Below, one piece after another: positions 1,714 to 24,000 of a DNA stretch of 64,000 bases. Position 1 is the first letter of the stretch. The number at the start of each line of letters is the position of its first letter. A program made the translations under genes and the position numbers. The notes beneath the pieces are model-generated. The model saw nothing but the letters and a program-made list of their open reading frames with translations, had not been told where the DNA came from and ran no database searches. Source of the stretch: Thermococcus barophilus MP (GTDB taxonomy: Archaea; Methanobacteriota_B; Thermococci; Thermococcales; Thermococcaceae); assembly GCF_000151105.2 (NCBI RefSeq), contig NC_014804.1, positions 1,538,567 through 1,602,566 on the forward strand, read 5' to 3'.

Positions 1714-2899
1714 TTTCATTTCTTTCTCCTCCTGACAACCTCTCGTAAAACCCATCTTTTTTCATTTCCCAGATTATTCGGTCAAATTTTTGAATGAGTT
1801 CCTCAACTTCAGGACTCCTTTGGTGCTTATTCTCGATGAGCACCACATCTTCCTCTGCCCGAATAACACTCTCAATCCCTGAAATCAGAAGAACATGCCA
1901 AACTGAGAAAACTAAAAGCATGAGAAGAAGAATTGTATTTGGAGAGAGAGTATATGTTAAAATAATTAACCAGATTAAACTTGCTGGAAATGCTATCCTT
2001 CTGAAAAGCTCGTTAAGACTCTTCTTGCCGCTAACAGCAAAGAGCACAACAGTTCCGATGAGCCCCACAGCAAAGCTTAACCCGCTCCAACGGATAATGG
2101 AAGCTGGAATCCACTCAATCCCAGTTATTGGCTTTTTACGAGCCTTTAACATTGCACTTCTGTAGGAGAGTACCTCAAAGTTCCAGAGAAGCAACACAAA
2201 GATTGACCATAGTATGTTTGCATCACCTTTAAGCGTGCTCAATGAACCTGAAAAATAAATGAACAAGGCTGCCATAGCAGGATAAAATTCTACCAACATA
2301 AAGGGAAGGAATATAAAAGAGAGCCTTGAGGGGAGAGAGGTGTCTTGATTCTTAGGAACTTCCCCTTTTCTGCGTCCCCAGATGTAAGCAATACTTACTA
2401 AAATACTAATAATAGAGACAAAAGCAATAGCCGCTTTCAGTATTTCTTTTATCTCTGATATTGCATCACCTTCAATATAGATGGGAATTGTAACATCCTC
2501 AACCGTTCCGTTGTCAAACTCAAAGCGAAACGTAAAGTAGTTAACTCTGTTGTAGAGAGCCCACTGATACTCTGAGTCTGTCCAAAAGGCATTCTTGACT
2601 GCCCGATATAGAAGAGACCACGGTATAAACTCTATTCCAATCGGAAGGGAAACTCCAGAGGGGGATTCACGAATAAAGTCATCTGTCTCGCTAAAAAACC
2701 AGACTCTGCTATGTCCAATTTCTATTCCATCAACTGCCACAAGATAAATCTTAGCTGTTCCAATGCCATTCACCGTGCACCTAACCTTTTCATGCACATT
2801 AACCTTCGGTGAACATGTTACGTTCAGTGCAAAAACTTGAGGGATAAAGACCATCACAATGAAAAATACCGTTATTACAGCGACTTTATAATTCCTCAT
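1706..2899 (-). CDS. Membrane protein of unknown function with signal peptide and C-terminal EVEELxxKFDR motif
   Basis: I do not recognise this 397-residue protein. It begins with a hydrophobic signal sequence (MRNYKVAVITVFFIVMVF, ending near FALNV). About 130 extracytoplasmic residues follow, with two Cys in the first stretch (CSP...RCTV), then a membrane segment (near residues 155-170) and several more hydrophobic helices (about 190-345). The C-terminal tail is hydrophilic and contains EVEELIQKFDRIIWEMKKDG, a motif shared with the product of the upstream gene. The start is ATG at 2899, supported by a GGAGGG ribosome site. It is last in a three-gene operon and overlaps the preceding gene by 14 nt. 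Confidence 0.75.
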   Translation of the reverse strand: MRNYKVAVITVFFIVMVFIPQVFALNVTCSPKVNVHEKVRCTVNGIGTAKIYLVAVDGIEIGHSRVWFFSETDDFIRESPSGVSLPIGIEFIPWSLLYRAVKNAFWTDSEYQWALYNRVNYFTFRFEFDNGTVEDVTIPIYIEGDAISEIKEILKAAIAFVSIISILVSIAYIWGRRKGEVPKNQDTSLPSRLSFIFLPFMLVEFYPAMAALFIYFSGSLSTLKGDANILWSIFVLLLWNFEVLSYRSAMLKARKKPITGIEWIPASIIRWSGLSFAVGLIGTVVLFAVSGKKSLNELFRRIAFPASLIWLIILTYTLSPNTILLLMLLVFSVWHVLLISGIESVIRAEEDVVLIENKHQRSPEVEELIQKFDRIIWEMKKDGFYERLSGGERNEIT

Positions 2900-3245
2900 G
2901 CTGATAACCCTCCTTTTTCATTTCCTTAATAACACGGTCGAACTTCCTAAGTAGCTCTTCCACTTCTAATGAGCGGGATTCATCTCCATAGGGAATGCTC
3001 TTAGCCTTCTCTCTGTATCTCCACAGAGCAAGGAGGTGAAAGATCAAGGCAACAAGAAAGACCAGCACCAGAGAAAAATCGGGGCGAGATAAGTACAAAA
3101 GGAAGATACACCATACCAGCCCAAGGGGCCAAGCACTCTCAAAGCGTGAGTGAAGAGAACGCCTCTGTTGAAACCAAATAAGCGTAAAGAAGAGAGGAAG
3201 CAGACAGAATATCAATAACAAAACAAGCAAAGTTCTCACATTCAT
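2886..3245 (-). CDS. Small membrane protein with two or three TM helices and EVEELxxKFDR tail
   Basis: This 119-residue protein has no recognised family. Residues 5-25 and two segments between about 38 and 75 are hydrophobic, and the rest is a charged cytoplasmic tail. The tail ends with EVEELLRKFDRVIKEMKKEG, nearly the same as the C-terminus of the next gene in the operon, so the two share a module by duplication. The start ATG at 3245 is preceded by GGAGGGATAGAAC, a good ribosome site. It overlaps its upstream neighbour by 4 nt and its downstream neighbour by 14 nt, which indicates translational coupling. Confidence 0.7.
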   Translation of the reverse strand: MNVRTLLVLLLIFCLLPLFFTLIWFQQRRSLHSRFESAWPLGLVWCIFLLYLSRPDFSLVLVFLVALIFHLLALWRYREKAKSIPYGDESRSLEVEELLRKFDRVIKEMKKEGYQHEEL

Positions 3246-4279
3246 GTTCTATCCCTCCTAACGCTGGCATAAACGTACTCGCGGTACTTGAAAATTAAAA
3301 CGGTGTAAATGGAAGCAATGGCAAAAAACAGACGAGCTGAAAATGGCTTTGCTCCAAAATAATTGGCAAAAATCAGGCCCATTATAGTATAAAGAACATT
3401 CAAAAGCAAGGCTGTTTTTGGTGAGATGCCGTCTGAGACTTCCCTATCCCAAACTATGAGGAGCATGATTCCAAAAACAACAAACGCAGCCGCTCCAAAG
3501 AAGTGATAAGCAACTCCAAGAATGGGTATCATTGGTATTACAAAAATTCCACTGTAGCCAGATTTAACACCTCTCTGAAACCATACGAAGAGATAAATCA
3601 GATGAAGGAAAATGTAAACTGAAAGGATGTTCAGCAAATTGTCAGCAAAATCAAAATAGTTTTGGACAACTATAATCCTATCAAGTAAAAGGAGAAAGAA
3701 CAGCAAAGTGCCAAGGAGAATAAAATAAACATGTGCACGAACTTCACTCGGTTTGTGCCTAAATATCTCAAACAAAAAGAAAAGTCCCACAAAAGACACT
3801 CCAAAATATGTAGGAATGTCACGTTGTGTCTCTGGGGGCACGTAAAAAGTCTTCTGGAGAGCATAACCGTTGCTGAAAATAACTTTAATGGTATGGTTTT
3901 TGTCACTCAACAGAAATCGATAATCTGATATGCCAGAAAATGTCCGTCCGTAGAGTTTCTCAGCAAGTGTTCTCTTCAAGCGGAGATACAGAAACGTCGA
4001 ATCATAATCGCCAGAATGTTCAAAAATTATCTCTTTTTCTGTTAAAAATCCGAGAGAGCCTTTTCCAGATAAAACCTCGGAAGTTATATCCATACCATCG
4101 AAGTAGACAGCAGAAACCAAAACTCTGCCATCAATATCGGGAAATAGAGTTATTCTGAAAATAAGTGTAGCACCGATATGAGGTTTATTTTCAATAGTGA
4201 TATTCCCAGAAATCTCTCCTTGAACCAAGGGGAGGAGTGTCATTAGAAGACCTACAAAAATTAATTTAAGGAGTCTCAT
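3242..4279 (-). CDS. Membrane protein of unknown function, signal peptide plus multi-TM C-terminal half
   Basis: First gene of the three-gene operon at 1706-4279. The 345-residue product starts with a signal sequence (MRLLKLIFVGLLMTLLPLVQG). About 150 extracytoplasmic residues of mostly beta character follow, and then about seven hydrophobic helices from residue 155 to the end. It has the same plan (secreted N-domain, membrane C-domain) as the protein at 1706-2899, but lacks the EVEEL tail. A TATA-like TATTTAAAGG lies about 25-35 nt upstream of the ATG. No catalytic motif is visible and I do not assign a function. A membrane complex of the three products is an inference from overlap and shared build. 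Confidence 0.72.
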   Translation of the reverse strand: MRLLKLIFVGLLMTLLPLVQGEISGNITIENKPHIGATLIFRITLFPDIDGRVLVSAVYFDGMDITSEVLSGKGSLGFLTEKEIIFEHSGDYDSTFLYLRLKRTLAEKLYGRTFSGISDYRFLLSDKNHTIKVIFSNGYALQKTFYVPPETQRDIPTYFGVSFVGLFFLFEIFRHKPSEVRAHVYFILLGTLLFFLLLLDRIIVVQNYFDFADNLLNILSVYIFLHLIYLFVWFQRGVKSGYSGIFVIPMIPILGVAYHFFGAAAFVVFGIMLLIVWDREVSDGISPKTALLLNVLYTIMGLIFANYFGAKPFSARLFFAIASIYTVLIFKYREYVYASVRRDRT

Positions 4280-4337
4280 AAATTATTCTTGACACCTGGC
4301 CTTTAAATACTTTTCGAAATAAGAAAAGATAAAAACT

Positions 4338-4799
4338 TCAAAGCGTATAATCCAGAACCTTTCCAGCCTCTTCAATGTGCTCTGGGTAAACATTCTTAAC
4401 CTCCGGGTGCAAAGCCTTGATAACCCTTCCAACAAGTACAAACAGCGTTCCTGTTATAATGGGCAGCTCGTTAACAACCTCCTCGTCGAGCGGCAGATCA
4501 GAGGGTATCTTCTTAAGAACGAACTTCCTTATCGGCTCAATTTCCACTTTCTCATCCTCAATGACAGCTCTGAAGAGGTTCATTGAATTCTTGAATCCCT
4601 TTGTTAGCGGTAAATGCCTCAGCCTTATTATCCCTGTGTTCTCAGCTTTTGCGTTCTCATAGGCAACTTCAAACAAATCGCTGAGCTTCTTCTCAACTAT
4701 CTCCATCATCTCCTCTGCTCTTGGCTTTATCACTGCCAACTCACATGTTCTCTCAAGAATCTTCTGAAGCTGTGGATATGGGATTATCATCTCTGCCAT
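4338..4799 (-). CDS. DUF1931 family histone-fold-like protein
   Basis: A 153-residue soluble protein resembling the DUF1931 family of archaea and Aquifex, whose members fold as two consecutive histone-fold-like helical units in one chain. The N-terminal half ([19 protein letters not shown]) and the C-terminal half ([20 protein letters not shown]) are helix-rich and of similar length. DNA binding is suspected for the family but the role is not settled. The frame stays open upstream to 5021, but ATG at 4799 is chosen because GGAGGTGAGAGTG directly precedes it and the upstream part is not protein-like. Confidence 0.8.
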
Positions 4800-11830: not shown

Positions 11831-12205
11831 TCAAAGAACCGCCATGACAGAAAGCCCAACCACAATCATGATAATTACCATTAGAATTATTGCTATCACT
11901 ATTGCAAAGAGCCATGCTATCACTGCTTTGCCCCAGTCCGTATTAAAAACTGTTTTGACGATCCAGAGAAACGCTATTAGTCCAAGAAGCCCTCCTATGA
12001 CTGGCACTATTGAACCCAGTATCGCAGAGACTATGAGACCTCCAAGCGTTGCAATGAATGCCTTTCCAAAGCTTGCATCTTCGATTTTTGCAAACTTGGC
12101 ACCCAGCCAAAGAAAGACGGAATCCACTGCAATAATAACTAAAAACATAACTACTGCCATAGCTCCAAGAGCCCCGAACACAGCCATTGGCCCAACTGGC
12201 GCCAT
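11831..12205 (-). CDS. Small hydrophobic membrane protein
   Basis: A 124-residue protein, mostly small hydrophobic residues. Four hydrophobic segments can be drawn (about 8-32, 45-62, 66-84 and 91-122), with a short polar stretch AKFAKIEDASFGK between the first two. The C-terminal helix is very long (AVIAWLFAIVIAIILMVIIM). No family recognised. ATG at 12205 is preceded by GGTGATCCGTA, a good ribosome site. It stands alone, divergent from the DUF63 gene. Confidence 0.6.
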   Translation of the reverse strand: MAPVGPMAVFGALGAMAVVMFLVIIAVDSVFLWLGAKFAKIEDASFGKAFIATLGGLIVSAILGSIVPVIGGLLGLIAFLWIVKTVFNTDWGKAVIAWLFAIVIAIILMVIIMIVVGLSVMAVL

Positions 12206-12321
12206 TACGGATCACCTTTTTTAAGATAAACACCCAAAGTTTATTAAGTTTTCCTATTCATTGAAGAAAGTTTTTGCGAAAAAGCTTTAAGCATTTTTCC
12301 TTAGGTGTTGAGGGGATCAAA

Positions 12322-13116
12322 ATGCTTGAATCAATAAAGGAATTCTTCTGGATTTACTTCATAAGACCTATGTACACAAGAGAAGGCTACAACCCATACA
12401 ATACGCTCGTATATGCGTTTCTCCTTGGTTTGGGCGTCATATATTCCTACAAATACATAATCAAACCCTTAAAGATCAAAGTTGATGAAAAGCTTTTCTG
12501 GGCTGTTACCCCTATGGTTGTCTTTGGAGCAACTGTCAGAGCGTTAGTTGATGGTGGAGTGCTGAAGCCAAATCCCCTGATTCTAACACCTGGAATATTT
12601 TTCACAGCATTTTTCCTGATTGTTCCCGCTTTAATAGCCGATGCAAAGCTGAAAACATACCCAAAAGTTACGATAGCTTGGGGCACGATTTTGGCATTAT
12701 ATGCAAACTATCTCCTCGTAACACACGTTAAAAGCTTCAAACCTTATGAGCTTACGATTTTCTGGACGGTAATTTTTATACTCCCGGTTCTGATTTTCTA
12801 CAGGTTTAAGCCTTTCGAGAAGATGTATCTATATCCCGTTTTGGCACATCTATTCGACATAGGCTCAACGGTTGTAGCAATACACTACTACGGCTACAGG
12901 GAAGTCCACTGGCTTGAAAACATCCTCGTTACAAAATTTGGGGCATTCATTTACTATCCGTGGATACTCTTCATCCTCATAGTTGTTTATTATGGGCTCA
13001 AGTGGCTTGTACCAGATGAGGAAGAAAGAAGGTACTGGTATCTGGCAATTTACATTCTCGGCTTGGGTCCAGCAATAAGAGACCCGGCTCAGATGATTTT
13101 ACAGCTTGCTGGTTAG
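12322..13116 (+). CDS. DUF63 family membrane protein
   Basis: A 264-residue polytopic membrane protein of the archaeal DUF63 family, function unknown. About eight hydrophobic helices are visible. Features are FWIYFIRPMYTREGYNPYNTLVYA at the N-terminus (aromatic and NPYNT-containing), FGATVRALVDGG after the second helix, HLFDIGSTVVAIHYYGYREVHW in the middle and DPAQMILQLAG at the end, all recurring in the family. The frame opens at 12274, but ATG 12322 is preceded by GAGGGGATC and matches the usual N-terminus. It converges on the ABC operon of the peptide cassette, 7 nt from its last gene. Confidence 0.85.
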   Translation: MLESIKEFFWIYFIRPMYTREGYNPYNTLVYAFLLGLGVIYSYKYIIKPLKIKVDEKLFWAVTPMVVFGATVRALVDGGVLKPNPLILTPGIFFTAFFLIVPALIADAKLKTYPKVTIAWGTILALYANYLLVTHVKSFKPYELTIFWTVIFILPVLIFYRFKPFEKMYLYPVLAHLFDIGSTVVAIHYYGYREVHWLENILVTKFGAFIYYPWILFILIVVYYGLKWLVPDEEERRYWYLAIYILGLGPAIRDPAQMILQLAG

Positions 13117-13123
13117 TCTTTTC

Positions 13124-14152
13124 TTAACTTTTCTCCTCGGCTCTTGAGTTAACACAGGAGTCAAATGAGCATATATGCGTAAATACATCTTCGAGGGTTA
13201 CTGGCTCGTTTTGGATATCAACGACATCATAATTTGTTAGGATTGCAAGGATATCCTTTAGATAATCTCGTTTAATATAGATCCCCAAGTAGGTAAAACC
13301 ATTTTGAGTGTAAGCGTTAATCTTCTCTGCTATCCCGTTAAAGTCTTCAATTTTAATCTTACCTTTAATTTTGACTAACAGTTTCCTATCTATTTTTAGA
13401 GTCTGGAATTTTTCAATTAGTTCTTTTGGCTTGCCTTCAGCGATTTTCTTCTTATTAAAAATTAAAACCCTGTTACATAACACTTCAGCCTCGTTCAAGT
13501 TGTGCGTGGTTAGTATTATTGTTGTCCCAAATTCTTTGGAAAGCTCTAAAATGGCATTCCAAACTTCTCTTCTTGTAAAAACGTCCAAGTAAACTGTTGG
13601 TTCATCCAAAATTAAAACTTCAGGCTGAATTATCAGCGGCAGTGCGAGGTAAACCTTCTGCCTCATGCCAGCAGAAAGCTTTTGATACCATTCGTTCTTC
13701 TTATCCTTGAGATTCAAAAGCTCCAAAGCATAATTAATTCTATTTTCAGCTTCAACTTTAGGAATTCCCCAGAGTTCTGCAATAAATTTCAAGTTCTTCT
13801 CCACGCTTACACGCCATTGAAAAAGCCCAAACAAATCCCTCTCACCGCCGAAAATCGTGAAAATTTTACCCTTGACTTTATCATGCTCTTTCACCGAATC
13901 ATAACCATTAATGTAAAGATTTCCTCGAGTTGGAATCACCAAAGCATTTGCAATCTTACAAAAGGTTGTCTTTCCAGCACCATTAGGACCCAGAAGACCA
14001 AAAATCTCACCCTCTTTAATCTTGAAACTCAAATCAATCAAAGCTGGGATTTTCTCTCTGGGTTTCCCAAGGAAATCTCTCAAGCTCTTCAGGTCAAAGA
14101 GCGATTTTATCGGTGGAGGATAAAACTTAGTCAAGTTGACAGACTCAATCAT
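13124..14152 (-). CDS. ABC exporter ATP-binding protein of the peptide cassette
   Basis: This 342-residue ATPase is likely the motor of an ABC-2 type exporter. It shows Walker A GPNGAGKTT near residue 57, the signature LSAGMRQKV, Walker B VLILDEPTVYLD and the H-loop LTTHNLNEAE. A C-terminal extension of about 90 residues follows and ends with a Cys-containing tail (ICSFDSCVNSRAEE). It is the last gene of the operon permease-HTH-ATPase; its ATG follows the HTH stop directly, with the ribosome site inside the HTH gene end. Divergent placement opposite a Cys-rich peptide and its radical SAM maturase suggests peptide export or self-protection. That role is inference. Confidence 0.85.
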   Translation of the reverse strand: MIESVNLTKFYPPPIKSLFDLKSLRDFLGKPREKIPALIDLSFKIKEGEIFGLLGPNGAGKTTFCKIANALVIPTRGNLYINGYDSVKEHDKVKGKIFTIFGGERDLFGLFQWRVSVEKNLKFIAELWGIPKVEAENRINYALELLNLKDKKNEWYQKLSAGMRQKVYLALPLIIQPEVLILDEPTVYLDVFTRREVWNAILELSKEFGTTIILTTHNLNEAEVLCNRVLIFNKKKIAEGKPKELIEKFQTLKIDRKLLVKIKGKIKIEDFNGIAEKINAYTQNGFTYLGIYIKRDYLKDILAILTNYDVVDIQNEPVTLEDVFTHICSFDSCVNSRAEEKS

Positions 14153-14428
14153 TTAAATCACCCGTATGACATAGGTTCTCCCTTTCTTCTTTCGTTCTAT
14201 CAAGCCCTTCTTTTCTAAGTTCTGAATAACCCTGCAAGCCCTAACTTTCCCAAATTTATTGCTAAGTCCTTTCTGAGTAACTTCACCATTTTGAAGTATA
14301 AACTCCAGGACATCCCTTTCCAACTCGGTTAATTCCACTTTGTACGCATGCTCAAGATCAATTTCTATTCTAAGGAACAATATCAATTTTCCATTTTCAC
14401 AGCTTGCTTTTAATAAATGGGTTCTCAT
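14153..14428 (-). CDS. Small winged-helix (HTH) regulator inside the ABC exporter operon
   Basis: A 91-residue protein. The N-terminal 30 residues are beta-rich; residues about 33-91 form a winged helix: LTELERDVLEFILQNGEVTQ (helix 1), GLSNKFGKVRACRVIQNLEK (recognition region), KGLIERKKKGRTYVIRVI (wing). This resembles MarR/ArsR-type or stand-alone archaeal wHTH proteins. ATG 14428 is chosen over GTG 14443 because AGAGGTGGTAGG sits immediately before it. It lies between permease and ATPase genes, so it is made together with the exporter and is a good candidate to bind the four-fold direct repeat at 15327-15398. Confidence 0.78.
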   Translation of the reverse strand: MRTHLLKASCENGKLILFLRIEIDLEHAYKVELTELERDVLEFILQNGEVTQKGLSNKFGKVRACRVIQNLEKKGLIERKKKGRTYVIRVI

Positions 14429-14439
14429 CCTACCACCTC

Positions 14440-15252
14440 TCACATGTGTCCTAAAGTTCCCAATTCTCTCGCTTTATTAAAGCCCCAGGAGAACATTAAA
14501 TAACCCAAAACCAGCATTATTAGCGTTATAACCAGCATGTTTCGTAAGCTTGGGAGGATTTGGGTTAGAGAATATCCGCCACCCATTGTCAGCCTGCCCA
14601 TTTGGAGAATGTAAGTTTCTGGGTGAATTTTTGAAAGTGGTTGAAGCCATTTTGGTAAAGCTTCGGGTGGGAAATACAAGCCGCTAACAAGCTGGGCGGT
14701 AATGTTGAAGAACCAGTTTAGTGGATCTTGTGTTGCTTTGGTGGCAATTCTGAAGCCTGCTGAGAATAAGTCAAGGGCGAAAATAAGCAAAACGCCGCTT
14801 AAAATGACAATTACAACGCCAAGGTTAAGATGGATGGTTAATCCGAAAAAGAGAACATAAATTGTGGTTATTATCAAAGTTAATCCCAAGTTCCATAAAA
14901 TTCGCCAAGCATTGATTCCGATGAAAATTGCTGTTAAAGAAGCTGGTGAATTGTATAACACTGGAAATATCCTGCCTAAAACGAATGAAGAGATACTGCC
15001 CTTGGGCAGAAAGACGAGATTGTGGATTATTGAACCAATTAAAAGATAATCAAGGTAACTTGGAGTGCCATATTGTGAAATGTTTGCATTGATTGTGATA
15101 AGCTTTGCAAAGATTCCAATGAATAGAATGTTTAATCCTAAGCTGATAAATTGAAGGAGTAGATCAAACCTCCTTGAAAAGAAGACTTCTTTTTGAATGA
15201 AAATGAATGCCTTAATTACCTTGATACTTTTGATCATCGCATTAATGTCCAT
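14440..15252 (-). CDS. ABC-2 type exporter permease of the peptide cassette
   Basis: A 270-residue membrane permease with six hydrophobic helices, built like ABC-2 family permeases. Residues 30-55 form helix 1 and 66-90 helix 2. The loop FYFPPEALPKWLQPLSKIHP-like segment (SGLYFPPEALPKWLQPLS) before the last helix is a hallmark of the family. The start is ATG 15252; a GTG one codon earlier is possible. It is first in the operon with the HTH and ATPase genes; the HTH start lies 11 nt beyond its stop. A TATA-like element at 15291-15298 on this strand would drive it. Confidence 0.85.
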   Translation of the reverse strand: MDINAMIKSIKVIKAFIFIQKEVFFSRRFDLLLQFISLGLNILFIGIFAKLITINANISQYGTPSYLDYLLIGSIIHNLVFLPKGSISSFVLGRIFPVLYNSPASLTAIFIGINAWRILWNLGLTLIITTIYVLFFGLTIHLNLGVVIVILSGVLLIFALDLFSAGFRIATKATQDPLNWFFNITAQLVSGLYFPPEALPKWLQPLSKIHPETYILQMGRLTMGGGYSLTQILPSLRNMLVITLIMLVLGYLMFSWGFNKARELGTLGHM

Positions 15253-15290
15253 CACTGCTCATCACACCCTATAAAAAATCAATGAAATTA

Positions 15291-15298
15291 CTTATAAA
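15291..15298 (-). promoter_or_regulatory. TATA box of the exporter operon
   Basis: On the minus strand TTTATAAG lies about 40-46 nt upstream of the permease ATG, with an A-rich tract (11 A, the complement of 15305-15315) just upstream of it. Position and composition fit an archaeal TATA/BRE. It is a pattern call, not an experimental start site. Confidence 0.45.
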
Positions 15299-15326
15299 CA
15301 TTGCTTTTTTTTTTTCTTTGTAAATG

Positions 15327-15398
15327 GTTTCATGGCATTTATAAATAAGTTTCAGTAGTTTATAAATCGGTTGCAGTAAAGCTTATTTATTGTTTCAT
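15327..15398. repeat. Four direct repeats GTT(T/G)CA(T/G) at 22, 21 and 22 nt spacing between divergent operons
   Basis: Copies are GTTTCAT at 15327-15333, GTTTCAG at 15349-15355, GTTGCAG at 15370-15376 and GTTTCAT at 15392-15398. Start-to-start distances are 22, 21 and 22 nt, which is two helical turns, so all four face the same side of the DNA. The first two units also share TTTATAAAT downstream of the heptamer. The array covers the promoter of the Cys-rich peptide gene and sits upstream of the exporter promoter. This is the form of an iterated operator. Confidence 0.7.
15359..15367 (+). promoter_or_regulatory. TATA box for the Cys-rich peptide gene
   Basis: TTTATAAAT lies 70-78 nt upstream of the peptide ATG, inside the second repeat unit. 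A second AT-rich candidate (CTTATTTATT) is at 15382-15391. Either would place transcription start within or just after the fourth repeat, so a protein on the repeats would block or assist TBP. Confidence 0.45.
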
Positions 15399-15436
15399 TG
15401 AAAATGTGAATGCAAAAACTTAGGGAGGTGAAAAAG

Positions 15437-15598
15437 ATGGGAAAGTTTGAGATTATAGAAAAAGGCTCTACAGAAGGAATTGCAGGGAATCTCTGTGTGT
15501 GCAATGATCTATGCATCCAACAGTGTTTTATCAACATATTTTCAATCTGCCCATGTGTGGCAGGTGGATACTGTGAAAGTAATTGTGTGTGTTATTAA
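15437..15598 (+). CDS. Probable RiPP precursor: 53-residue peptide with nine cysteines
   Basis: This is likely the substrate of the radical SAM enzyme encoded next. The 53 residues divide into a short charged leader (MGKFEIIEKGSTEGIAGN) and a core with Cys at 20, 22, 26, 30, 38, 40, 46, 50 and 52, including three CxC pairs (CVC, CPC, CVC) and the C-terminal Tyr. Nine Cys in 34 residues with few charges is typical of ribosomal peptides whose Cys are linked to other residues. The start ATG 15437 has a strong GGAGGTG with 6 nt spacing; an in-frame ATG at 15410 lies before that site and would put it inside the gene. An 82-nt gap with T-rich stretches separates it from the maturase gene. Precursor identity is inference from neighbours and composition. 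Confidence 0.75.
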   Translation: MGKFEIIEKGSTEGIAGNLCVCNDLCIQQCFINIFSICPCVAGGYCESNCVCY

Positions 15599-15680
15599 AC
15601 ATCCTTCCCCTCTTTACTTTTTAATGGATAATACTCCTCATATATTGCCACATATTGTAGGGGTTAGGAGGAAAGAAGAT

Positions 15681-17123
15681 ATGATGGGCAAAGAAAATAT
15701 TTCACAATATAAGCCTTCGTTTTATAACCTGATCATACCTCTGAATGAAGAAGGAGAATTCGTTCTCTTCAACACACTTAGGAACATTGTGGCGAGAATT
15801 GATAGAGAAACCAAAGAAGGCCTTGAGACAGGTTCCTTAGAAAGATTAGACAATGAAACAATTACACGAATGAGAGAAACTGGAGTGATTATACCCAAAA
15901 ATTTGGATGAGCTTGATTATTTGAAATATCTCCGAATACTTCACTTGGGGAATATGCTTGCTAATTCTCGGGTAGGATTAACCCTAGTAATGACGTACTC
16001 GTGTAATTTAGCGTGCCCTTATTGTTACGAGGGGGATAGAAAAACTAAAGGAGGGTTATTGACTCCAAAAAAGATTGACAAAATATTAACATTTGCAAAA
16101 AACCATGAGCAAAATGATAAGAAACCAATAGTTTCCATTAGTTTTTATGGTGGAGAACCGCTCTTAAACTGGAAAGGGTGCAAATACACACTAAAGAGAT
16201 TGAAAGAAATGAAAGATGAAGGAGAAATTCGAGATTACTCAACTAGTTTTGTTACCAATGGAATACTAATCAATGAGGAAACCATCGATGCAATCAACAC
16301 GTACAATGTGTATTCAATGCAAATAACACTGGATGGTCCTAGAGATATCCACGATAAAAGGAGAATAAAAATAAATGGTGAAGGAACTTTTGATGAAATA
16401 ATTGAAAATATTAAACTACTGAAAAATGAAGTCACTAATGAAAAATTCCGTTTAGGTTTAAGAATAAATGTTGACAAGACAAATTACAAGCGAATCCCGG
16501 AATTATTGGATTTTTTAAAGAAGGAAGGACTTAATGACATACCGATCTCATACGGGATTGTTAGGAGTAATATTCCATACTGTAGCGATTGCTCAAATAC
16601 TCATGTTTTTCTTGGTAGGGATTTACCTGAATACTTACCATTCCTCTGGAAAGAAGCTTATAGACGAGGATTTAAAATTACCACAAGACCCAATCTAAAA
16701 TTTGTTTATTGTGTGTACGATAACCCAAATGGATACGTTGTTGATCCTGAGTTAAAAGTTTACCCTTGTTGGGAGATGGTTGGTGCAGAAAAATACATTA
16801 TTGGTAAAATAAAAGAAGAGGGTTCTTTTGAGCCAGAACCATTCTATTATACTGTCAAGACGAGGAATCCCATAGAGTTTGAGGAATGCAAGAACTGCAA
16901 ACTCTTGCCAATCTGCATGGGAGGTTGTGCTGCTGAGTCAACAAGAAGAAATGGTCATCCAAATGGACCTGGATGCGACATAACCAAGTACGTATGGAAA
17001 GAAGGACTAAAATTTTATTTAATGAGAAAATATCCCAACCTATTTACGAACAAAGAACTTACAGAAATCCTAGGTACTGTACCAATGGAAGAAAATAGTA
17101 ATATGTTAAAATTCAAACTATAA
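15681..17123 (+). CDS. Radical SAM/SPASM peptide maturase
   Basis: This 480-residue enzyme should install post-translational links (such as Cys thioethers) in the adjacent Cys-rich peptide, using SAM and iron-sulfur clusters. An N-terminal region (about 1-90; SFYNLIIPLNEEGEFVLFNT, then NTLRNIV) resembles the substrate-handling part of such maturases. The radical SAM core has Cys108, Cys112 and Cys115 (CNLACPYC) and GGEP at 157-160. The C-terminal SPASM domain has Cys344, 363, 403, 406, 412, 416 and 432, the full seven-Cys pattern, plus an extra CSDC at 301-304. ATG 15681 follows GGAGGAAAG; an ATG at 15684 is equally possible, and the longer open frame overlaps the peptide gene and is rejected. 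The peptidase gene follows immediately. Confidence 0.88.
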   Translation: MMGKENISQYKPSFYNLIIPLNEEGEFVLFNTLRNIVARIDRETKEGLETGSLERLDNETITRMRETGVIIPKNLDELDYLKYLRILHLGNMLANSRVGLTLVMTYSCNLACPYCYEGDRKTKGGLLTPKKIDKILTFAKNHEQNDKKPIVSISFYGGEPLLNWKGCKYTLKRLKEMKDEGEIRDYSTSFVTNGILINEETIDAINTYNVYSMQITLDGPRDIHDKRRIKINGEGTFDEIIENIKLLKNEVTNEKFRLGLRINVDKTNYKRIPELLDFLKKEGLNDIPISYGIVRSNIPYCSDCSNTHVFLGRDLPEYLPFLWKEAYRRGFKITTRPNLKFVYCVYDNPNGYVVDPELKVYPCWEMVGAEKYIIGKIKEEGSFEPEPFYYTVKTRNPIEFEECKNCKLLPICMGGCAAESTRRNGHPNGPGCDITKYVWKEGLKFYLMRKYPNLFTNKELTEILGTVPMEENSNMLKFKL

Positions 17124-17137
17124 TGGTGATGAAAACA

Positions 17138-18850
17138 ATGAAGCGCAAGTATCTTTTAGGTGTGCTGTCTGTTTTTATCATATTTCTACTTTTTTTCATG
17201 AGGGATGATAATAACATTCAGGTAACTCACGTTAATATTCTTAATCTCTCCATATCCCTTGTTAGTGATGAAGAGTTGAATAACTTAGCGAACCAATCTG
17301 TCATCAAGGGATACAGTCAGGTTAAAATAAGGATTTTCGAGAATTATACCTTTAACGCAAACAAGACGATAAAAGTAGGGAATACCGGAGTTGTGTATGT
17401 CCCGGTTTTATATTCGCCACGTATTCACTTTAATGACATATTCATAGAAAATGCGGAACTACTAAATGCATCCATCTTAGTTAGTGAGAGAGGTAGCATT
17501 CTCCTGCTAAAACTTAAAATTCCAAAAGGCACAAGGGCAGGTATTAGATTTGAATATCAAGGCAGTATTAGAGAACAAATATGTGCTCGAGTTGGCATAA
17601 TCAGGACTCTTTTTGTTAAATATGAAAGCCCTGATGAAATTGAAATGTGTCCCGAAATGTTTTTGCCTGAAATATCAAATGGATTCTTGGAGACCAAGAT
17701 TATTTTGGAACTACCTCAATCGTGGAGAACTTGGACGGGAATTATTGTAAGCAACTCAGGAGTATTGGAACCTAAGGCCCAACTCAATGGCCGGCTGATA
17801 TTTACTTCAAGGGGACTCTTTATCCCGTTCCTTATACTTGGGGATTTTAAGATGATGAGATATAATGTTAATGATGTCAAGGTAGAGATATACTTTCCTA
17901 AATACCTCTCCCTAAATGTGTCCTCCAGATATGAAGATGTTGTTGGTGACATTATCAGGACGTTCTCCTCGTGGTACATGCCTTATCCGTATCAGAATCT
18001 GACTATCATCTTTTCTTCCAACATGATGAGAATGACGGGAATTAACAAGAACAGCCCAATTTTAATCACGGCAAATGCAACTCCAAGCTTATTAGCTCAT
18101 GAAATCTCTCACTCGTGGTTCGGAGGGTATGCAGAATTCGGGAATATCGATGAGAGTCTGGCAACATACTCCGAAATGTCGTATATGATAAGATTTTATA
18201 ATGAACATCCAGAGGAGCTGGAGAATTATGCCAGATACAATCTTACAACAATCCAAAAAGTGCTCGATTTTGTAGAAGAGCGAGTGCTCAAATACAATCA
18301 CGATTATCCCAAACCTCTCTCCCAGGTTTACAGAACATGGATACCAAATTCTACTATTAGAAATGCAATAATGTATGATAAAGGTGCTTTCGTCTTCCGC
18401 TCTCTTCAGTTTGTTCTTGGAAACGAGACCTTCTTTAAGGGGTTGAGGGAGCTTTTAAGGGAATGTCATAATAAAGAGTGCAATTTAACTGACGTTCAAA
18501 ACGTTTTTGAGAGGGTTAGCGGTCAAAACTTGGACTGGTTCTTCAAAGAGTGGTTTTACACTGCAAAAGTGCCAGATTATGATGTAAGAAACTTAAGCTT
18601 GGAAGAAAAAGGTGGAAAATACCTGCTAACTTTTGAAATTATTGACAAAAACAACTTCACAATGCCCCTTGAGGTCGAAGTAAAAACTCCCACAAAGAGT
18701 TTCATTAAGAAAGTCTGGATCAACGGAACTGCAAGGGTAGAGTTTGAGCTTGACAAAAAACCCACAGAGATAATCCTCGACCCAAACGAATGGATGGTGA
18801 ATGAGAACAAAAAATATAACGTTGATGAAATAGAGATAACAATTGAGTAG
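17138..18850 (+). CDS. Membrane-anchored M1-like zinc metallopeptidase of the peptide cassette
   Basis: A 570-residue gluzincin-like protein anchored by one N-terminal helix (about residues 5-21), with the rest outside the cell. The zinc motif HEISHSWFGG is at residues 321-330 (His321, Glu322, His325), and the likely third ligand Glu339 lies in DESLATY after 13 residues, shorter than the 18 usual in M1 aminopeptidases. The C-terminal part (NLDWFFKEWFYTAKVPDYDV) matches the helical end of M1-like catalytic domains. ATG 17138 is preferred because GGTGATGA lies just upstream; ATG 17123 overlaps the maturase stop. Cleavage of the leader after export is the natural hypothesis. Translation is probably coupled to the maturase. 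Confidence 0.82.
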   Translation: MKRKYLLGVLSVFIIFLLFFMRDDNNIQVTHVNILNLSISLVSDEELNNLANQSVIKGYSQVKIRIFENYTFNANKTIKVGNTGVVYVPVLYSPRIHFNDIFIENAELLNASILVSERGSILLLKLKIPKGTRAGIRFEYQGSIREQICARVGIIRTLFVKYESPDEIEMCPEMFLPEISNGFLETKIILELPQSWRTWTGIIVSNSGVLEPKAQLNGRLIFTSRGLFIPFLILGDFKMMRYNVNDVKVEIYFPKYLSLNVSSRYEDVVGDIIRTFSSWYMPYPYQNLTIIFSSNMMRMTGINKNSPILITANATPSLLAHEISHSWFGGYAEFGNIDESLATYSEMSYMIRFYNEHPEELENYARYNLTTIQKVLDFVEERVLKYNHDYPKPLSQVYRTWIPNSTIRNAIMYDKGAFVFRSLQFVLGNETFFKGLRELLRECHNKECNLTDVQNVFERVSGQNLDWFFKEWFYTAKVPDYDVRNLSLEEKGGKYLLTFEIIDKNNFTMPLEVEVKTPTKSFIKKVWINGTARVEFELDKKPTEIILDPNEWMVNENKKYNVDEIEITIE

Positions 18851-18917
18851 CAACAAATCAAAATAGTGAAGTAGGGTATTCACACAATAATTTAAAACAT
18901 ATGGTGAGGGCACAACA

Positions 18918-20891
18918 ATGAAGGATATAGTATTTCCAGCTCTCTTGGTTTTTCTCATTATAGGAATTTCGTTCGGTTGCATTTCTGGCGAACATTCGTC
19001 ACCAACTTCCACTGTAAAAAATATTCAGACTTCAGAAACTATGCAGACAGCTAATTTAAGCTACACCTATTACAAAGACTGGCTCCACAACTCCACAAAG
19101 TACTTCGAAATCTACTATCCAGAAGAGATTTATGAAGATCCAACACTGCAGTCAAAGCTCAATATGCTCCTTCTCGGCGCAGACAGCACTTATGAAAGCT
19201 ATTCTAAGCTCTTTGGAATCAAACCACAAAGAGCAAAAATTTACCTCTATCCCTCAAAAGATAGCCTAAAAAGCATCACGGGGAAAAATACGCTCTGGTT
19301 CGTAGATTACCGGAACAGAGAAATACACATTGCATTGATAGAAGAAAGCGGTATGTATTCATCGTTTGAAATTGTTTCAGCACTCTTGGAGTTTGCAGCC
19401 GGCAGAAAGCTTCCGGATGTGATTGCTGTTGGATTTGGAGTGCTGAACTTCAGAATATCAATGAGCCCTCAAGAAAAAGCTGCCAAGTATGTGAGCATAG
19501 AGCAGCTGAAGTCATTAGATCTAAGAAAAGAATACAACGAAACCCTATATGCCGAAGCTGGGGATTTGCTAAGATACATTGCAGATATTCACGGCACTCA
19601 AGCCCTAATAAAAACACTAAAAGATGGAAATATTCCAACTGTCAACGAAAAGGATTTCCTTGAATTTTTAGAGGTTGAAGATCACGAAACAAGCAACATC
19701 GAAAAAACGATCATAACCCTGAACATCAGCATAGAGCAGAAAAAGTTTGAAGGAGCTATAACCTATAACAATGTTACCTCACAGCCGTACATATACTTCA
19801 GAAGAACACCAAGAATTAACATCAAGGAAATTAAAGTGAACGGCAAAAGCGTTGACTTCATCCAGAGCTTTACAATTGTTATTCCCATGAAGAACTTCAA
19901 AAAAGGAAGCATCGAAATCAAATACAGCGGCGATTATTCAAAAATCGAGAAAATAGCACCTAAGAGGGGGTACATAGAAGGGCAGATTAAGAAAAATACT
20001 GCATTTTTAAGGGGTGCATTTCTGCGTCCTATGCTGAATTCCGTTGAGCTTTTCAATGTCATCGAAGTTAGAGCCAAGACAGATAGAGGAATAGTTGTAG
20101 CTCCAGGTGAATTAATTTCCTCCAATGTTTGGAGAATTTCATTTCCCAGTGGCTTTAGCGGGGTAATTCCAGTCTTTGCTGGAGAATTCAAGAAGATGGA
20201 GCTGATGAACGGCTACTTAACGGTGTACTACATGGGGCTTGATGACAAAACCGCAGAGGGATACGCCAACCTTACCGCGGAAATTCTGGAGTTTGGAGTG
20301 GAACATTTTGGAAAGCCGGGATACGGGAAAGTTAAAGTTGTTTACCCCAAGGAAATAAGCATTTCAAGTTTAATGCTCGATACTCTTGCATATTCCCATA
20401 ATCCGCTGAGGTACAAATACGGCTACACCTATGAGGTAGCACACTGGTGGGTTCCCGGGACGGTGACATTTGACAGAAACATGAGCCAGTTCTGGTTCAA
20501 TCTTGCTTTCCCATGGTACTACTCTTTAAAATACGCTCAGAATATTTCACAGGAAAGCTACCGTGAGCTAAGAAACTATGGGATTTCAAAATATCACAGG
20601 GCAACAAAATATGGAGAAAAGGATGTTCCATTAACAGAGGTGTGGAAGGTATGGAGAACAGATATCAACCTCTACTATGCGGTTGGCGCATATAAAGGAG
20701 CTTTGGTTCTTGAAAAGCTTGAAGAATATACAGGTAGAGAGGCATTTTTCCAGTCTCTCAGAGAGTTCTTTGAAAAATACAGATTTAGGGAAGGAAATTT
20801 AAACGATTTTGTAGCAATACTGGAAAAGAACTCCGGAAAACCAGTTAAAGAACTCTTCCAGAATTTGACAGCGAATACAGGATTACCATAG
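18918..20891 (+). CDS. Lipoprotein with M1/gluzincin-like fold and broken zinc motif
   Basis: A 657-residue protein with a signal sequence ending in FGC (Cys21 as the likely lipid anchor) and a Ser/Thr-rich linker. Residues about 60-235 look like a peptidase-MA-like domain without HExxH; 265-425 are beta-rich; 430-657 resemble an M1 catalytic domain in which the motif reads YEVAHWWVPG (505-514), so the first zinc His is Tyr. The C-terminal helices (ALVLEKLEEYTGREAFFQSL and FREGNLNDFVAILEKNSGKP) parallel those of the preceding protein. It follows that gene by 67 nt, with GGTGAGG before ATG 18918. It may bind peptide or act as immunity or a cofactor protein; the function is not known. Confidence 0.75.
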   Translation: MKDIVFPALLVFLIIGISFGCISGEHSSPTSTVKNIQTSETMQTANLSYTYYKDWLHNSTKYFEIYYPEEIYEDPTLQSKLNMLLLGADSTYESYSKLFGIKPQRAKIYLYPSKDSLKSITGKNTLWFVDYRNREIHIALIEESGMYSSFEIVSALLEFAAGRKLPDVIAVGFGVLNFRISMSPQEKAAKYVSIEQLKSLDLRKEYNETLYAEAGDLLRYIADIHGTQALIKTLKDGNIPTVNEKDFLEFLEVEDHETSNIEKTIITLNISIEQKKFEGAITYNNVTSQPYIYFRRTPRINIKEIKVNGKSVDFIQSFTIVIPMKNFKKGSIEIKYSGDYSKIEKIAPKRGYIEGQIKKNTAFLRGAFLRPMLNSVELFNVIEVRAKTDRGIVVAPGELISSNVWRISFPSGFSGVIPVFAGEFKKMELMNGYLTVYYMGLDDKTAEGYANLTAEILEFGVEHFGKPGYGKVKVVYPKEISISSLMLDTLAYSHNPLRYKYGYTYEVAHWWVPGTVTFDRNMSQFWFNLAFPWYYSLKYAQNISQESYRELRNYGISKYHRATKYGEKDVPLTEVWKVWRTDINLYYAVGAYKGALVLEKLEEYTGREAFFQSLREFFEKYRFREGNLNDFVAILEKNSGKPVKELFQNLTANTGLP

Positions 20892-20995
20892 TTTTTATCT
20901 GGTTCCCGTTTTTACAGATTTTTCGCCCTGATTTATAATCAATATCATTCTGTACTCATTATCCAGTGTGTTCATCTTAACCCACCAAACATTCG

Positions 20996-23500
20996 CTAAC
21001 CTCCTCTTAACTTTCTTCCCTCTTCGAGCTCTCTTCTCAAAGTCCTTGCCTCAAACTCTGCATTCTTAACCCTAAACACCTTTGCAATCCTCTCAACTGC
21101 TTCAAGCTTTCTAATTATGCCGTCAAGCCATGTAAATATGTCCCCGGGATAAAGAATTAAGCCGTACATCTTTCTAAAGTACTCACTTATCTGGGTTGGA
21201 TGCTTTCCTTCTCTCCTCAGCTCCATGATGCGGTCGCTTATTCTGTGCATCGCGTACTCAGTGCACTCCTTTTCTTCACACATAAAGAAGTCCTGATAAA
21301 TCGTGAAGAGCCTCTCTTGAGCATTTGGGCTGAGCTCTGGGATAACTTTTTCAAGCTCCTCTAAGATCGAAGCAAAGCTTGGGGAAAAGATGTTAGCACT
21401 CAGCCTTCCTCTAACTGCTCCTTCCAGCTCCCTCTGCAGAGTTCCGCTGAGATAAACATTTTCAAAAGGCAAAAGCGTGATTGCAATCTCTCTTGGACTT
21501 TTCTTTGTGAGGTTTTCTCTTATGAACTGAGCTTCACTTGGCAGCAAAAAGCTCATGCTAACGGCTCTTCCATAGGGTGTAACGTTCACAAGCTTGCCCC
21601 TAAGCTTAACAAACTCATATTCCTCAAGCTTTTTCAAAACCTCTTCAGCACTTTGATTCGCTCCTAAGCATCTGCTCTGAACTTCTTCTATATCATCCAA
21701 GTATGAGAACACACATGCATGAGCCAAAACCTGATCTTGCTCCAGCTCATCGCTCCACTCAAGGTAAACAGGCTCAATAGATGCTGTTAACAGCTTAAAT
21801 GCGACTTCATCTTCGCTTTGCTCCATTTGAGCTGAGTACTTCTTTCCAGGCTCAATTATGAGGTAAACCTTTCCTTTCTCGTGGTAGAGAGGTCTCCCCG
21901 CTCTTCCAAGCATCTGGTGGAACTCTCTAACGCTCAGCCACTTATTACCCATTGCCAAGCTTTCAAAGATTACCTGACTTGCTGGAAAATCAACTCCCGC
22001 CCCTAAAGCAGCCGTAGTTACAACAACATCAAGCATCTGAGCTTGAAACTCCATCTCCGTGAGCTTTCTTTGATGATATGGCAAGCCAGAGTGATAGGGC
22101 TTTGCCTTCAATCCTCTGCTTGTTAAAAACGCAGCAAGCTCGTGGCATCTCTTCCTCGAAAAGGTGAAAACTATGGTCTGACCTTTATAGCCTTGCTTCG
22201 ATTTTCTCATGGCCTCAGCTTTAGCTAATTGAGCTATGTAGCGCCATTTCTCACTCTCGTTTCTTGCCAAAATGACGTGCCTCTCCAAAGCCACTGGTCT
22301 TTCGTCATAGAGAACCAGCTTAAGCCCAAGCTCTTTTGAAAGTTCTTCGGGATTTCCAATTGTAGCACTCAGCCCAATGAACTGAGCTTTTGGATAGAGC
22401 TTCCTTAATCTCGCTATTAAACCGTCCAATCTTGCCCCTCTCTCCTCGTCATCAATCATGTGAATCTCATCAATGACGATAGTTCCAACTCTTCCAATTT
22501 TTCTGCCAGCCCTCAATAGATAATCAATTCCCTCATAAGTTCCAACAATTATGTCGGCATCAATTCCCGTATCCACAACGACGAGCTCGTCTTTGGTCTT
22601 AATTCTGCTCATACCAACCCTTATGGCAACTCTTAAGCCAAGCTTGGAATATCTTCTCTTGAAGTCTTCATATTTTTGATTTGCCAAAGCCACAAGGGGA
22701 ACCAAAAAAAGCATTTTCTCCCCTTTCATTGCCTTGGGAACTCCAGCCAATTCTCCTATGAGGGTTTTCCCACTTGCTGTGGCTGAAACAATGAGAAGGT
22801 TTTCTCCTTTTAACAGACCATGCTGAATAGCCAAGCTCTGAACCGGTAAAAGCTCCCTTATGCCCTCACTCTTTAACACATCTTTGAGCTCTTCCGGAAT
22901 TTCAAGCTCGTCAATGTTCAGCTTTTTGACTTTAATCTTCTTCGGCTTAAGCTCATCCCATTTTGTAACTTCAGGATTCTTGGTCGGATCAAATCTTGGA
23001 TCAAAAACCATTAGAACCTTATCTAAATCTCTAAATCGCTGTAAAAGCTTCTTTGCTTGGTCAAACATTCCCAAACTCCTGAAGCGATAGCGGAGCTCAT
23101 TTTTAAGCTCTTCCTCCGCACATCCCTCACAAATGTATTCGCTATGGAATTTTATTCTATTTCCTTCAGTTAATACGGTTATCTTCCCACTGAGAAGGCA
23201 GAACCTACATAGATGGGCTTTTTCAACCCTCTTATTTTGAAGTCTCACTTTAAAATAATTTTCCCATTCATCTGCATCTACCAAAACAACCCTCGCCTGT
23301 CTCAAAAGTTTCTCAACCTCTTTGGGATTTCTGTACTGACTACCTTCAAGAACTTTAAACAAACGGTTGTCTCTCATAATCAACCGATAAATTTTGTCAG
23401 CCTTCAAATTTTGCATCTGAGAAAGTTTTTCAGGTTCTTTCTCAATGTAGTATGCTTCAAGCTCATTCTTTTTTCTGCCCTTCCTGATTACAAACAGCAT
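20996..23500 (-). CDS. Large SF2 helicase with N-terminal zinc-binding domain (DUF5814-type)
   Basis: An 834-residue ATP-dependent nucleic acid helicase. The N-terminal domain has two Cys pairs (CRFC at 98-101, CEGC at 124-127), likely a zinc site. The helicase core has Walker A SATASGKT (239-246), the DEIH box in VIDEIHMIDDEERG, SAT in GLSATIGNPEE, and motif VI QMLGRAGRP. The C-terminal region has CEEKEC and helical segments. This corresponds to archaeal Ski2/Hel308-like helicases carrying a DUF5814 region. ATG 23500 is used; it has GGTGATTTC upstream, which also contains the GTG at 23509. It overlaps the upstream lrp-type gene control region (stop at 23506), so the two are probably co-transcribed. 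Confidence 0.85.
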   Translation of the reverse strand: MLFVIRKGRKKNELEAYYIEKEPEKLSQMQNLKADKIYRLIMRDNRLFKVLEGSQYRNPKEVEKLLRQARVVLVDADEWENYFKVRLQNKRVEKAHLCRFCLLSGKITVLTEGNRIKFHSEYICEGCAEEELKNELRYRFRSLGMFDQAKKLLQRFRDLDKVLMVFDPRFDPTKNPEVTKWDELKPKKIKVKKLNIDELEIPEELKDVLKSEGIRELLPVQSLAIQHGLLKGENLLIVSATASGKTLIGELAGVPKAMKGEKMLFLVPLVALANQKYEDFKRRYSKLGLRVAIRVGMSRIKTKDELVVVDTGIDADIIVGTYEGIDYLLRAGRKIGRVGTIVIDEIHMIDDEERGARLDGLIARLRKLYPKAQFIGLSATIGNPEELSKELGLKLVLYDERPVALERHVILARNESEKWRYIAQLAKAEAMRKSKQGYKGQTIVFTFSRKRCHELAAFLTSRGLKAKPYHSGLPYHQRKLTEMEFQAQMLDVVVTTAALGAGVDFPASQVIFESLAMGNKWLSVREFHQMLGRAGRPLYHEKGKVYLIIEPGKKYSAQMEQSEDEVAFKLLTASIEPVYLEWSDELEQDQVLAHACVFSYLDDIEEVQSRCLGANQSAEEVLKKLEEYEFVKLRGKLVNVTPYGRAVSMSFLLPSEAQFIRENLTKKSPREIAITLLPFENVYLSGTLQRELEGAVRGRLSANIFSPSFASILEELEKVIPELSPNAQERLFTIYQDFFMCEEKECTEYAMHRISDRIMELRREGKHPTQISEYFRKMYGLILYPGDIFTWLDGIIRKLEAVERIAKVFRVKNAEFEARTLRRELEEGRKLRGG

Positions 23501-23505
23501 TGAAA

Positions 23506-24000
23506 TCACCGCCGTCTCCGCCTTCTTGTTTTTCTCTCCTGCATTATTACACCGCCTTCCTTGAAGGTATCCATAATAACCGAAACCTTCGCTCTTTTCA
23601 TGTTCTTTCCAAGATACTTTACTGAGAGACTTTTTACAAATTCCTTAAGCTGAGGGACGTCCTTAAAGTTTGCCCGTATCAAAATTTGAAATTCTCCAGT
23701 TTTTCTGTAAACTCCAATGACATTATCAAGCCTGCTTATGTTATAGAGCATTCTATCAACGGCTTCATTGTCAACAAGGAGCTCAACTTCAATTATTGCC
23801 TGAATAAACTCATTCAAAAAAGCGGGATCAACTATTGCGGAATATCCTTTGATGGCACCCAAGCTTTCAAGCTTTTCAATTCTGTTCTTTATGCTTGCAG
23901 GTGAAAGTCCAATTTTTCTTCCCAACTCTGTCAGAGTAGCCCTACCGTTTTTCCTGAGCTCTTTGAGAATCTCCTCATCTTTTTCATCAATGCTTGCCAT
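23506..24000 (-). CDS. Lrp/AsnC family transcriptional regulator
   Basis: A 164-residue DNA-binding regulator. Residues 3-60 form the HTH (DEEILKELRKNGRATLTELG, then RKIGLSPASIKNRIEKLESL), and residues 65-145 the ligand-binding RAM domain. An unusual C-terminal tail ends in six arginines (TRRRRRR). Proteins of this family respond to amino acids. ATG at 24000 is taken; a GTG two codons upstream is possible. The stop lies a few bases before the helicase start, so the pair forms an operon. Confidence 0.88.
   Translation of the reverse strand: MASIDEKDEEILKELRKNGRATLTELGRKIGLSPASIKNRIEKLESLGAIKGYSAIVDPAFLNEFIQAIIEVELLVDNEAVDRMLYNISRLDNVIGVYRKTGEFQILIRANFKDVPQLKEFVKSLSVKYLGKNMKRAKVSVIMDTFKEGGVIMQERKTRRRRRR

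Follow-up and report, generated by a model that had tools for sequence, protein, structure and literature searches.

The 64,000-nucleotide stretch of Thermococcus barophilus MP analysed here (the window; NC_014804.1, positions 1,538,567 to 1,602,566, with all coordinates given as window positions) carries an inserted gene island that is probably a cassette for a ribosomally synthesised and post-translationally modified peptide (RiPP). Its operon begins with a precursor peptide, followed by a radical S-adenosylmethionine (SAM) enzyme of the SPASM type, a membrane-anchored M1 peptidase and an M1-like lipoprotein, and it is divergent from an ATP-binding cassette (ABC) exporter that includes a small helix-turn-helix (HTH) gene (Table 1). 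We consider it probable that this is an apparently undescribed Cys-rich precursor/maturase cassette at an exchangeable expression site. A broader reading, towards which we lean with less confidence, is that the Thermococcales have a RiPP ‘expression site’, where one bidirectional, regulator-linked promoter and one exporter serve unrelated cassettes (Cys-rich SPASM, CefA, Cys-free radical SAM, radical SAM with PPDK-like proteins, and YcaO/ThiF) that are swapped between conserved flanks. Relatives were sought in 94 Thermococcaceae genomes, which are labelled by G-number with G000 as the window genome.

The precursor (MGKFEIIEKGSTEGIAGNLCVCNDLCIQQCFINIFSICPCVAGGYCESNCVCY) begins at 15437 behind GGGAGGTGA, a strong ribosome-binding site, and adjoins the maturase gene on its upstream side. 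It has the general make-up of a RiPP, with a leader, MGKFEIIEKGSTEGIAGN (15437–15490), and a Cys-rich core (15491–15595) encoded beside a modifying enzyme. The nine Cys residues (positions 20, 22, 26, 30, 38, 40, 46, 50 and 52) lie within 33 residues and form several CxC pairs. Among 2,239 open reading frames (ORFs) of 40–90 amino acids in the 721 kb made up of the window locus and related loci, eight contain at least 14% Cys, and six of these eight belong to the precursor family; 20 shuffles of the window gave no ORF with at least 16% Cys. Neither Pfam nor NCBIfam holds a family that matches the window precursor, five relatives have no NCBIfam match above cut-off, and the CefA model NF038108 gave no match at E<=1 among six precursors of the window type scanned.

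The precursor profile matches exactly seven genomes, the window genome included (G000, G078, G084, G008, G047, G061 and G060), precisely those in which an orthologous maturase is encoded, either intact or frameshifted. All seven have the precursor gene immediately before that of the maturase; a maturase homologue without a nearby Cys-rich peptide, the observation by which the earlier note proposed to judge the pairing, was not found among the intact and frameshifted orthologues. The leader is nearly invariant across the family (pattern F.I.E.GS.E...GN, comprising F4, I6, E8, G10, S11, E13, G17 and N18), and the core is hypervariable in length and sequence, yet remains Cys-rich, with 9–13 Cys per precursor. 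Between three close members none of the 13 Cys columns changes, as against 17 of the 44 other core columns (Fisher p=0.006).

Nine Cys residues with several CxC pairs would also suit a metal- or cluster-binding peptide whose neighbouring radical SAM enzyme acts on another substrate, and the peptide chemistry is itself a prediction. We regard this as very improbable given the conserved leader joined to a variable core, the SPASM enzyme with a predicted RRE-like domain to which the peptide is strictly linked, the linked exporter and surface peptidases, and the other RiPP types exchanged under the same promoter. Slimmer still is the chance that a small redox cofactor is built on the peptide, on the pattern of PQQ or mycofactocin, and that only a fragment becomes the product: a SPASM enzyme with a peptidase is, as a matter of general knowledge, also a layout of cofactor pathways, but here the core is hypervariable in length and sequence, the distribution is patchy and no dedicated dehydrogenase is linked.

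The maturase itself supports a peptide-modifying role. The mechanically called start of the gene, at 15480, overlaps the peptide; we take 15681 as the start because a Shine-Dalgarno site and the homologues support it. The protein matches Radical_SAM (Pfam, 2.2e-20), and its sequence contains the CX3CX2C motif at residues 108–115 and all seven SPASM Cys (344, 363, 403, 406, 412, 416 and 432) that define a SPASM maturase with two auxiliary clusters. An AlphaFold2 model built from 24 related sequences (pLDDT 86.8) found its best matches among solved structures in the thioether-forming CteB (5why, 5wgg), then TigE, an anaerobic sulfatase maturase and SuiB; a profile search agrees on CteB and TigE. 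At the N-terminus of the model, strands at residues 10–40 precede helices at 42–50, 58–67 and 77–94, an order over residues 10–94 that we take to be that of an RRE domain, and the best whole-chain match is the RRE-bearing CteB. The model predicts that the maturase carries an RRE-like N-terminal domain.

Measured against the curated NCBIfam bit cut-offs, the nearest models are CefB (NF038107; 359.8 bits, cut-off 600), the Clo7bot maturase (TIGR04334; 260, cut-off 600) and TIGR04463 (216, cut-off 525); the SCIFF maturase model (TIGR03974) scored 117.5 bits with a cut-off of 425. The earlier note had proposed a RiPP cassette, not recognised as a named system, in which a precursor and a SPASM maturase go with a surface peptidase and a linked exporter; this proposal is supported, with precursor and maturase both below every NCBIfam cut-off. 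Close maturase relatives (∼48–68% identity) occur in G078, G084, G008, G047 and G061, along with a copy bearing frameshifts and stops in G060 and a remnant in G074. No relatives of the maturase or the permease were found in viral contigs, so there is no sign of a viral carrier, and a plasmid collection held only distant bacterial maturases, the best being of Clo7bot type (33% identity over 94%). Two genomes of another family of the same class (G113 and G114, family f5) each contain 14 or more regions related to the maturase alignment, which by sequence amounts to an expansion of peptide-maturase-like enzymes.

In each of the eight loci, one of them a remnant, the gene immediately after the maturase encodes a predicted zinc peptidase. 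In seven (G000, G078, G084, G008, G061, G060 and the G074 remnant) this is the M1 gene, and in G047 a DUF4932 gene stands in its place; G060 and G061 have both. DUF4932 matches a zincin domain weakly, and we infer that it is a zinc peptidase. The window M1 protein retains H325, E326, H329 and E343, the HEXXH motif and downstream Glu of the M1 family, and HEXXH is kept in all cassette paralogues in the alignment. The spacing to this Glu is shorter than the 18 usual in M1 peptidases. On its sequence, the M1 protein is a candidate for leader removal or trimming. Removal of RiPP leaders by an M1 peptidase has a precedent in AplP (PMC10885120), which makes a surface trimming step plausible. The likeness to the AplP-type enzymes of class III/IV lanthipeptides lies in the use of an M1 zinc peptidase for RiPP processing (PMC10885120); unlike them, the window enzyme has a membrane anchor and belongs to a radical SAM pathway, and a sister cassette has DUF4932 in its place.

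The earlier note described a HEISH metallopeptidase and a pseudo-peptidase of like build, and the alignment agrees: the lipoprotein has YEVAH at the HEXXH site and lacks the M1 zinc ligands. It sits at the helicase-side edge of the island, a place it also occupies in G078 and G082 and, as fragments, in G064 and G075. A structure model of it was discarded (pLDDT 38). The lipoprotein is only loosely tied to the peptide, and its standing as a core pathway part is weakened by its occurrence in 16 genomes, most of them without the precursor. An immunity or binding function would be a guess. One version, which we think unlikely, is that this protein, and not the exporter, is the self-protection factor and binds the product at the cell surface. 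Its loss of zinc ligands with retention of the family sequence, its place as a lipoprotein at the island edge and its partial presence where the peptide cassette has been lost (G064 and G075) would fit such a role; its absence as an orthologue from the cassette carriers G084, G008, G047, G060 and G061 and its presence in genomes without the cassette speak against it, as does the truncation of the G064 and G075 copies.

The divergent exporter combines an ABC ATPase with an ABC2_membrane permease, the two parts of an ABC-2 exporter, and the HTH gene keeps its position between them in most relatives. Permease matches occur in 27 of the 94 genomes (82–95% identity within the close group), and ATPase copies beside other RiPP cassettes are mostly 70–88% identical. 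The earlier note had the exporter protect its producer; we set product-specific immunity aside, since unrelated RiPP types adjoin the same exporter module. A second exporter type, with permeases of 58–63% identity and no HTH gene between ATPase and permease, is found at loci L094–L103 and L107 (G093:C5, G017, G016, G043:C5, G061:C81, G023:40k and others), often near another class of radical SAM enzyme.

Between the two transcription units lies the element on which the broader reading depends. It contains TATA-like TTTATAAAT boxes, tandem ∼22-bp repeats of the GTTTCA...TTTATAAAT type and a core motif at 15359–15386, and is 65–86% identical to regions upstream of other, unrelated RiPP cassettes, or 66–87% when aligned pairwise. 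By comparison, the control region upstream of the DUF63 gene is 43–57% identical between lineages in pairwise alignment. Promoter identity is 76.1% within cassette types versus 72.6% between types, and so varies little with the type of cassette. Exact matches to the core pattern number 24, spread over 18 Thermococcaceae genomes (two, at G055 contig ends, may be one place); 21 genomes from other families of the class have none, and a reversed control pattern gave none. Matches with two mismatches (GTTATAAACC..., genus g5) were set apart by sequence as a separate family. Most promoter sites adjoin the same exporter genes.

As judged from their genes, at least six different RiPP cassette types stand behind this shared promoter. 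Alongside type A, the Cys-rich SPASM type of the window (7 genomes), these are CefA-like precursors scoring above the NF038108 cut-off (G023 and G047); a MKIEILKVENGKI...CGGGG precursor that has a SPASM-like enzyme of its own (G074 and G078, truncated in G084); Cys-free YVPPxGG-type peptides beside a radical SAM enzyme (G068 and G093); a 46–47-residue RGRCGK.PCGH peptide accompanied by radical SAM and PPDK-like proteins (G001 and G082); and, in G078 (L162, G078:C1:126000-134000, 371–4640), a 52-residue CCCCGGGG peptide, the precursor MVEGFKFEIFEEYEEGPILEPLDDDDPIIIIACCCCGGGGDNWKIFSTKPNP, followed by ABC, ThiF and YcaO genes. This last cassette is likely to encode an azole-type RiPP in a hyperthermophile. 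In G055 the promoter is followed by a short peptide and a radical SAM gene. The Cys-free peptides at L171 (G068) and L182 (G093) start MEYIPPAGGE and MSYVPPVGGD and are rich in Ala and Val, and the radical SAM enzyme beside them lacks the SPASM Cys in the alignment; we know of no named family to which these peptides belong. A similar short leader pattern recurs in the unrelated cassette types at L167, L172, L177 and L190 (EFEIIE, KIEILK, KFEIFE and DFELLK) and is perhaps a common recognition signal.

The unit is also a defined insertion. All the genes named in the earlier note are present, and its coordinates come close to those of a true genetic unit: only 9 bp separate the DUF63 and helicase genes in G087, G089 and G092, which belong to the same genus, as against 7.9 kb in the window. 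In the alignment, a 9-bp repeat, CTTAACTTT, marks either edge of the island and has a single copy in the empty sites. The same site contains RiPP-type genes, or what is left of them, in G064, G075, G078 (21 kb), G079, G082 and G084. In G064 the permease gene runs straight into the 3′ part of the lipoprotein gene, an arrangement that looks as it would after deletion of the peptide operon. G090 has one unrelated gene at this place, which indicates a general insertion site, not one reserved for RiPPs. Outside the island, the DUF63 gene is adjoined by a gene for a 124-residue small hydrophobic protein (11834–12205, minus strand) that has no Pfam match and is kept there in several relatives.

Table 1. 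Features of the island and its flanks, in window positions.
Feature	Position	Strand	Basis
DUF63 gene, island flank	12274–13116		Pfam
ABC transporter ATPase (DrrA-like), exporter module	13124–14152	-	Pfam ABC_tran 4.2e-25; NCBIfam drrA 3e-64, below cut-off
Inserted island	13137–21004 (approximate)	.	Empty sites in G087, G089, G092
Winged HTH protein (TrmB/MarR-like), candidate regulator of the divergent promoter	14153–14428	-	Pfam TrmB 3.5e-6
ABC-2 permease of the exporter	14440–15255	-	Pfam ABC2_membrane 4.6e-7
Shared bidirectional promoter/operator element, ∼138 bp	15271–15408	.	Identity upstream of unrelated RiPP cassettes
RiPP precursor, 53 residues, nine Cys	15437–15598	+	Shine-Dalgarno site; family of 7
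Radical SAM/SPASM maturase	15681–17123	+	Pfam/NCBIfam, invariant residues, AlphaFold2 model, fold match
Membrane-anchored M1 zinc peptidase, HEISH, one N-terminal transmembrane segment	17123–18850	+	Pfam Peptidase_M1 5.5e-15
M1-like lipoprotein without zinc ligands (pseudo-peptidase)	18918–20891	+	YEVAH for HEXXH; lipobox-like FGC near N-terminus
DEAD-box helicase gene, island flank	20996–23509		Pfam

Cassette exchange between genera can be read from the alignments. G078 and G008, which belong to different genera, share ∼2.7 kb, from the maturase start into the peptidase gene, at 97–100% identity per 100-bp block (mostly 99–100%). Within the last ∼300–350 bases of the peptidase gene the identity drops at a sharp breakpoint to 64–79%. 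The helicases of the two lineages diverge far more, with 85% and 77% identity to the window copy. The precursor region just upstream of the maturase is only ∼89–95% identical, compared with ∼99% for the maturase, and so the precursor changes faster than its enzyme. The peptidase genes of L035 (7870–9615) and L037 (8789–10534) are 96–100% identical between genera up to about nucleotide 1350 and 64–90% thereafter, a switch that reads as a clear recombination breakpoint. In most cassette pairs the N-terminal part of the peptidase is 11–50% identical and the C-terminal part 57–84%; the N-terminal variation may be an adaptation to the variable core. We infer from these patterns that the conserved flanks act as recombination arms.

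We propose the following mechanism. The divergent promoter would drive the precursor operon in one direction and the exporter in the other, and the RRE-like domain of the maturase would bind the conserved leader. The radical SAM cluster and two auxiliary Fe-S clusters would then form crosslinks in the Cys-rich core, with thioethers the likeliest kind; the ABC-2 exporter would carry the product outward, where the surface M1 peptidase (DUF4932 in the sister cassette) would remove the leader or trim the ends. The unit of precursor, maturase and peptidase N-terminal domain would be exchanged by recombination between the conserved flanks, with promoter and exporter staying in place. The likely role would be competition or kin signalling. 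In a possible variant, held tentatively, the product is a strain-specific pheromone and not an antimicrobial, and the peptidases and pseudo-peptidase serve in its processing and as its receptor. Features that fit a pheromone are a single conserved bidirectional promoter that has tandem repeats, a linked HTH gene, a resemblance to pherotype loci in the pairing of conserved regulation with swapped products, and no obvious product-specific immunity gene, but no dedicated receptor or two-component system is linked, and hypervariable cores on a mobile island are equally expected of bacteriocins.

Several observations weigh against this explanation of a RiPP cassette at an exchangeable site. No member has a known product, mass or activity. 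The maturase lies well below every equivalog cut-off in NCBIfam, and its chemistry therefore cannot be carried over from a named family; the G060 frameshift and the G074 remnant indicate that the trait is dispensable. No precursor is seen behind the promoter in G043 and G075, where a DUF4932 or M1 gene stands alone, or in G088, where an ABC gene follows, and a second promoter copy in G008 leads into a remnant. The mostly precursor-free distribution of the pseudo-peptidase belongs on this side as well.

Of the systems already named, CefA/CefB (‘Cys-every-fifth’; NF038108/NF038107) is alike in having a short Cys-rich precursor upstream of a SPASM maturase, and G023 and G047 have CefA-type precursors under this promoter and beside this exporter. 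The window cassette differs in its maturase score, in lacking a CefA match, in a Cys spacing that is not every fifth residue and in its leader. Clo7bot/CtpM maturases (TIGR04334), the closest in the plasmid collection, likewise have Cys-rich precursors directly upstream, but their score here is low, and the Clo7bot locus has tandem small peptide genes, other transporters and no annotated M1 or DUF4932 gene. CteB/SCIFF (ranthipeptide) maturases, a class marked by Cys thioethers to a beta or gamma carbon, give the best fold and profile match among solved structures, and the window maturase is predicted to share their layout of RRE, radical SAM and SPASM domains; the low SCIFF score and precursors with 9–13 Cys, not six in forty-five, set the window family apart. 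The hypervariable Ig-domain gene islands of Thermococcales (PMC8416519) resemble it as strain-variable modules of the same order with a proposed role in biological conflict, but are centred on large Ig-domain proteins, and the text describing them mentions no radical SAM, RiPP or ABC transporter.

Predicted RiPP clusters, including ranthipeptides, are known in archaeal genomes, and two haloarchaeal lanthipeptides are named as earlier characterised archaeal RiPP products (PMC12144867). Our literature search found nothing on this precursor family or on a shared RiPP promoter in Thermococcales, though subscription papers fell mostly outside it and the result is not proof of absence. In that search Thermococcales never appeared together with radical SAM, RiPP and SPASM, the terms Clo7bot, Cys-every-fifth and geopeptide gave only irrelevant matches, and no RiPP product from hyperthermophiles was found reported.

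Taken alone, the cassette is a new member of the Cys-rich SPASM RiPPs; the greater novelty lies in an expression platform common to cassettes of exchangeable chemistry. Characterised RiPP products from archaea are still very few, and this family offers seven carriers, a defined insertion site, thermostable SPASM enzymes and a testable precursor/maturase pair, with cassette exchange between genera visible at base level. The promoter element is a sequence tag that finds peptide cassettes of unrelated chemistry without prior knowledge of the enzymes. Archaeal competition or signalling by modified peptides becomes directly testable. If the broader reading holds, strains would change the peptide they make without altering its regulation or export, and this would be the archaeal equivalent of bacteriocin or pherotype switching.

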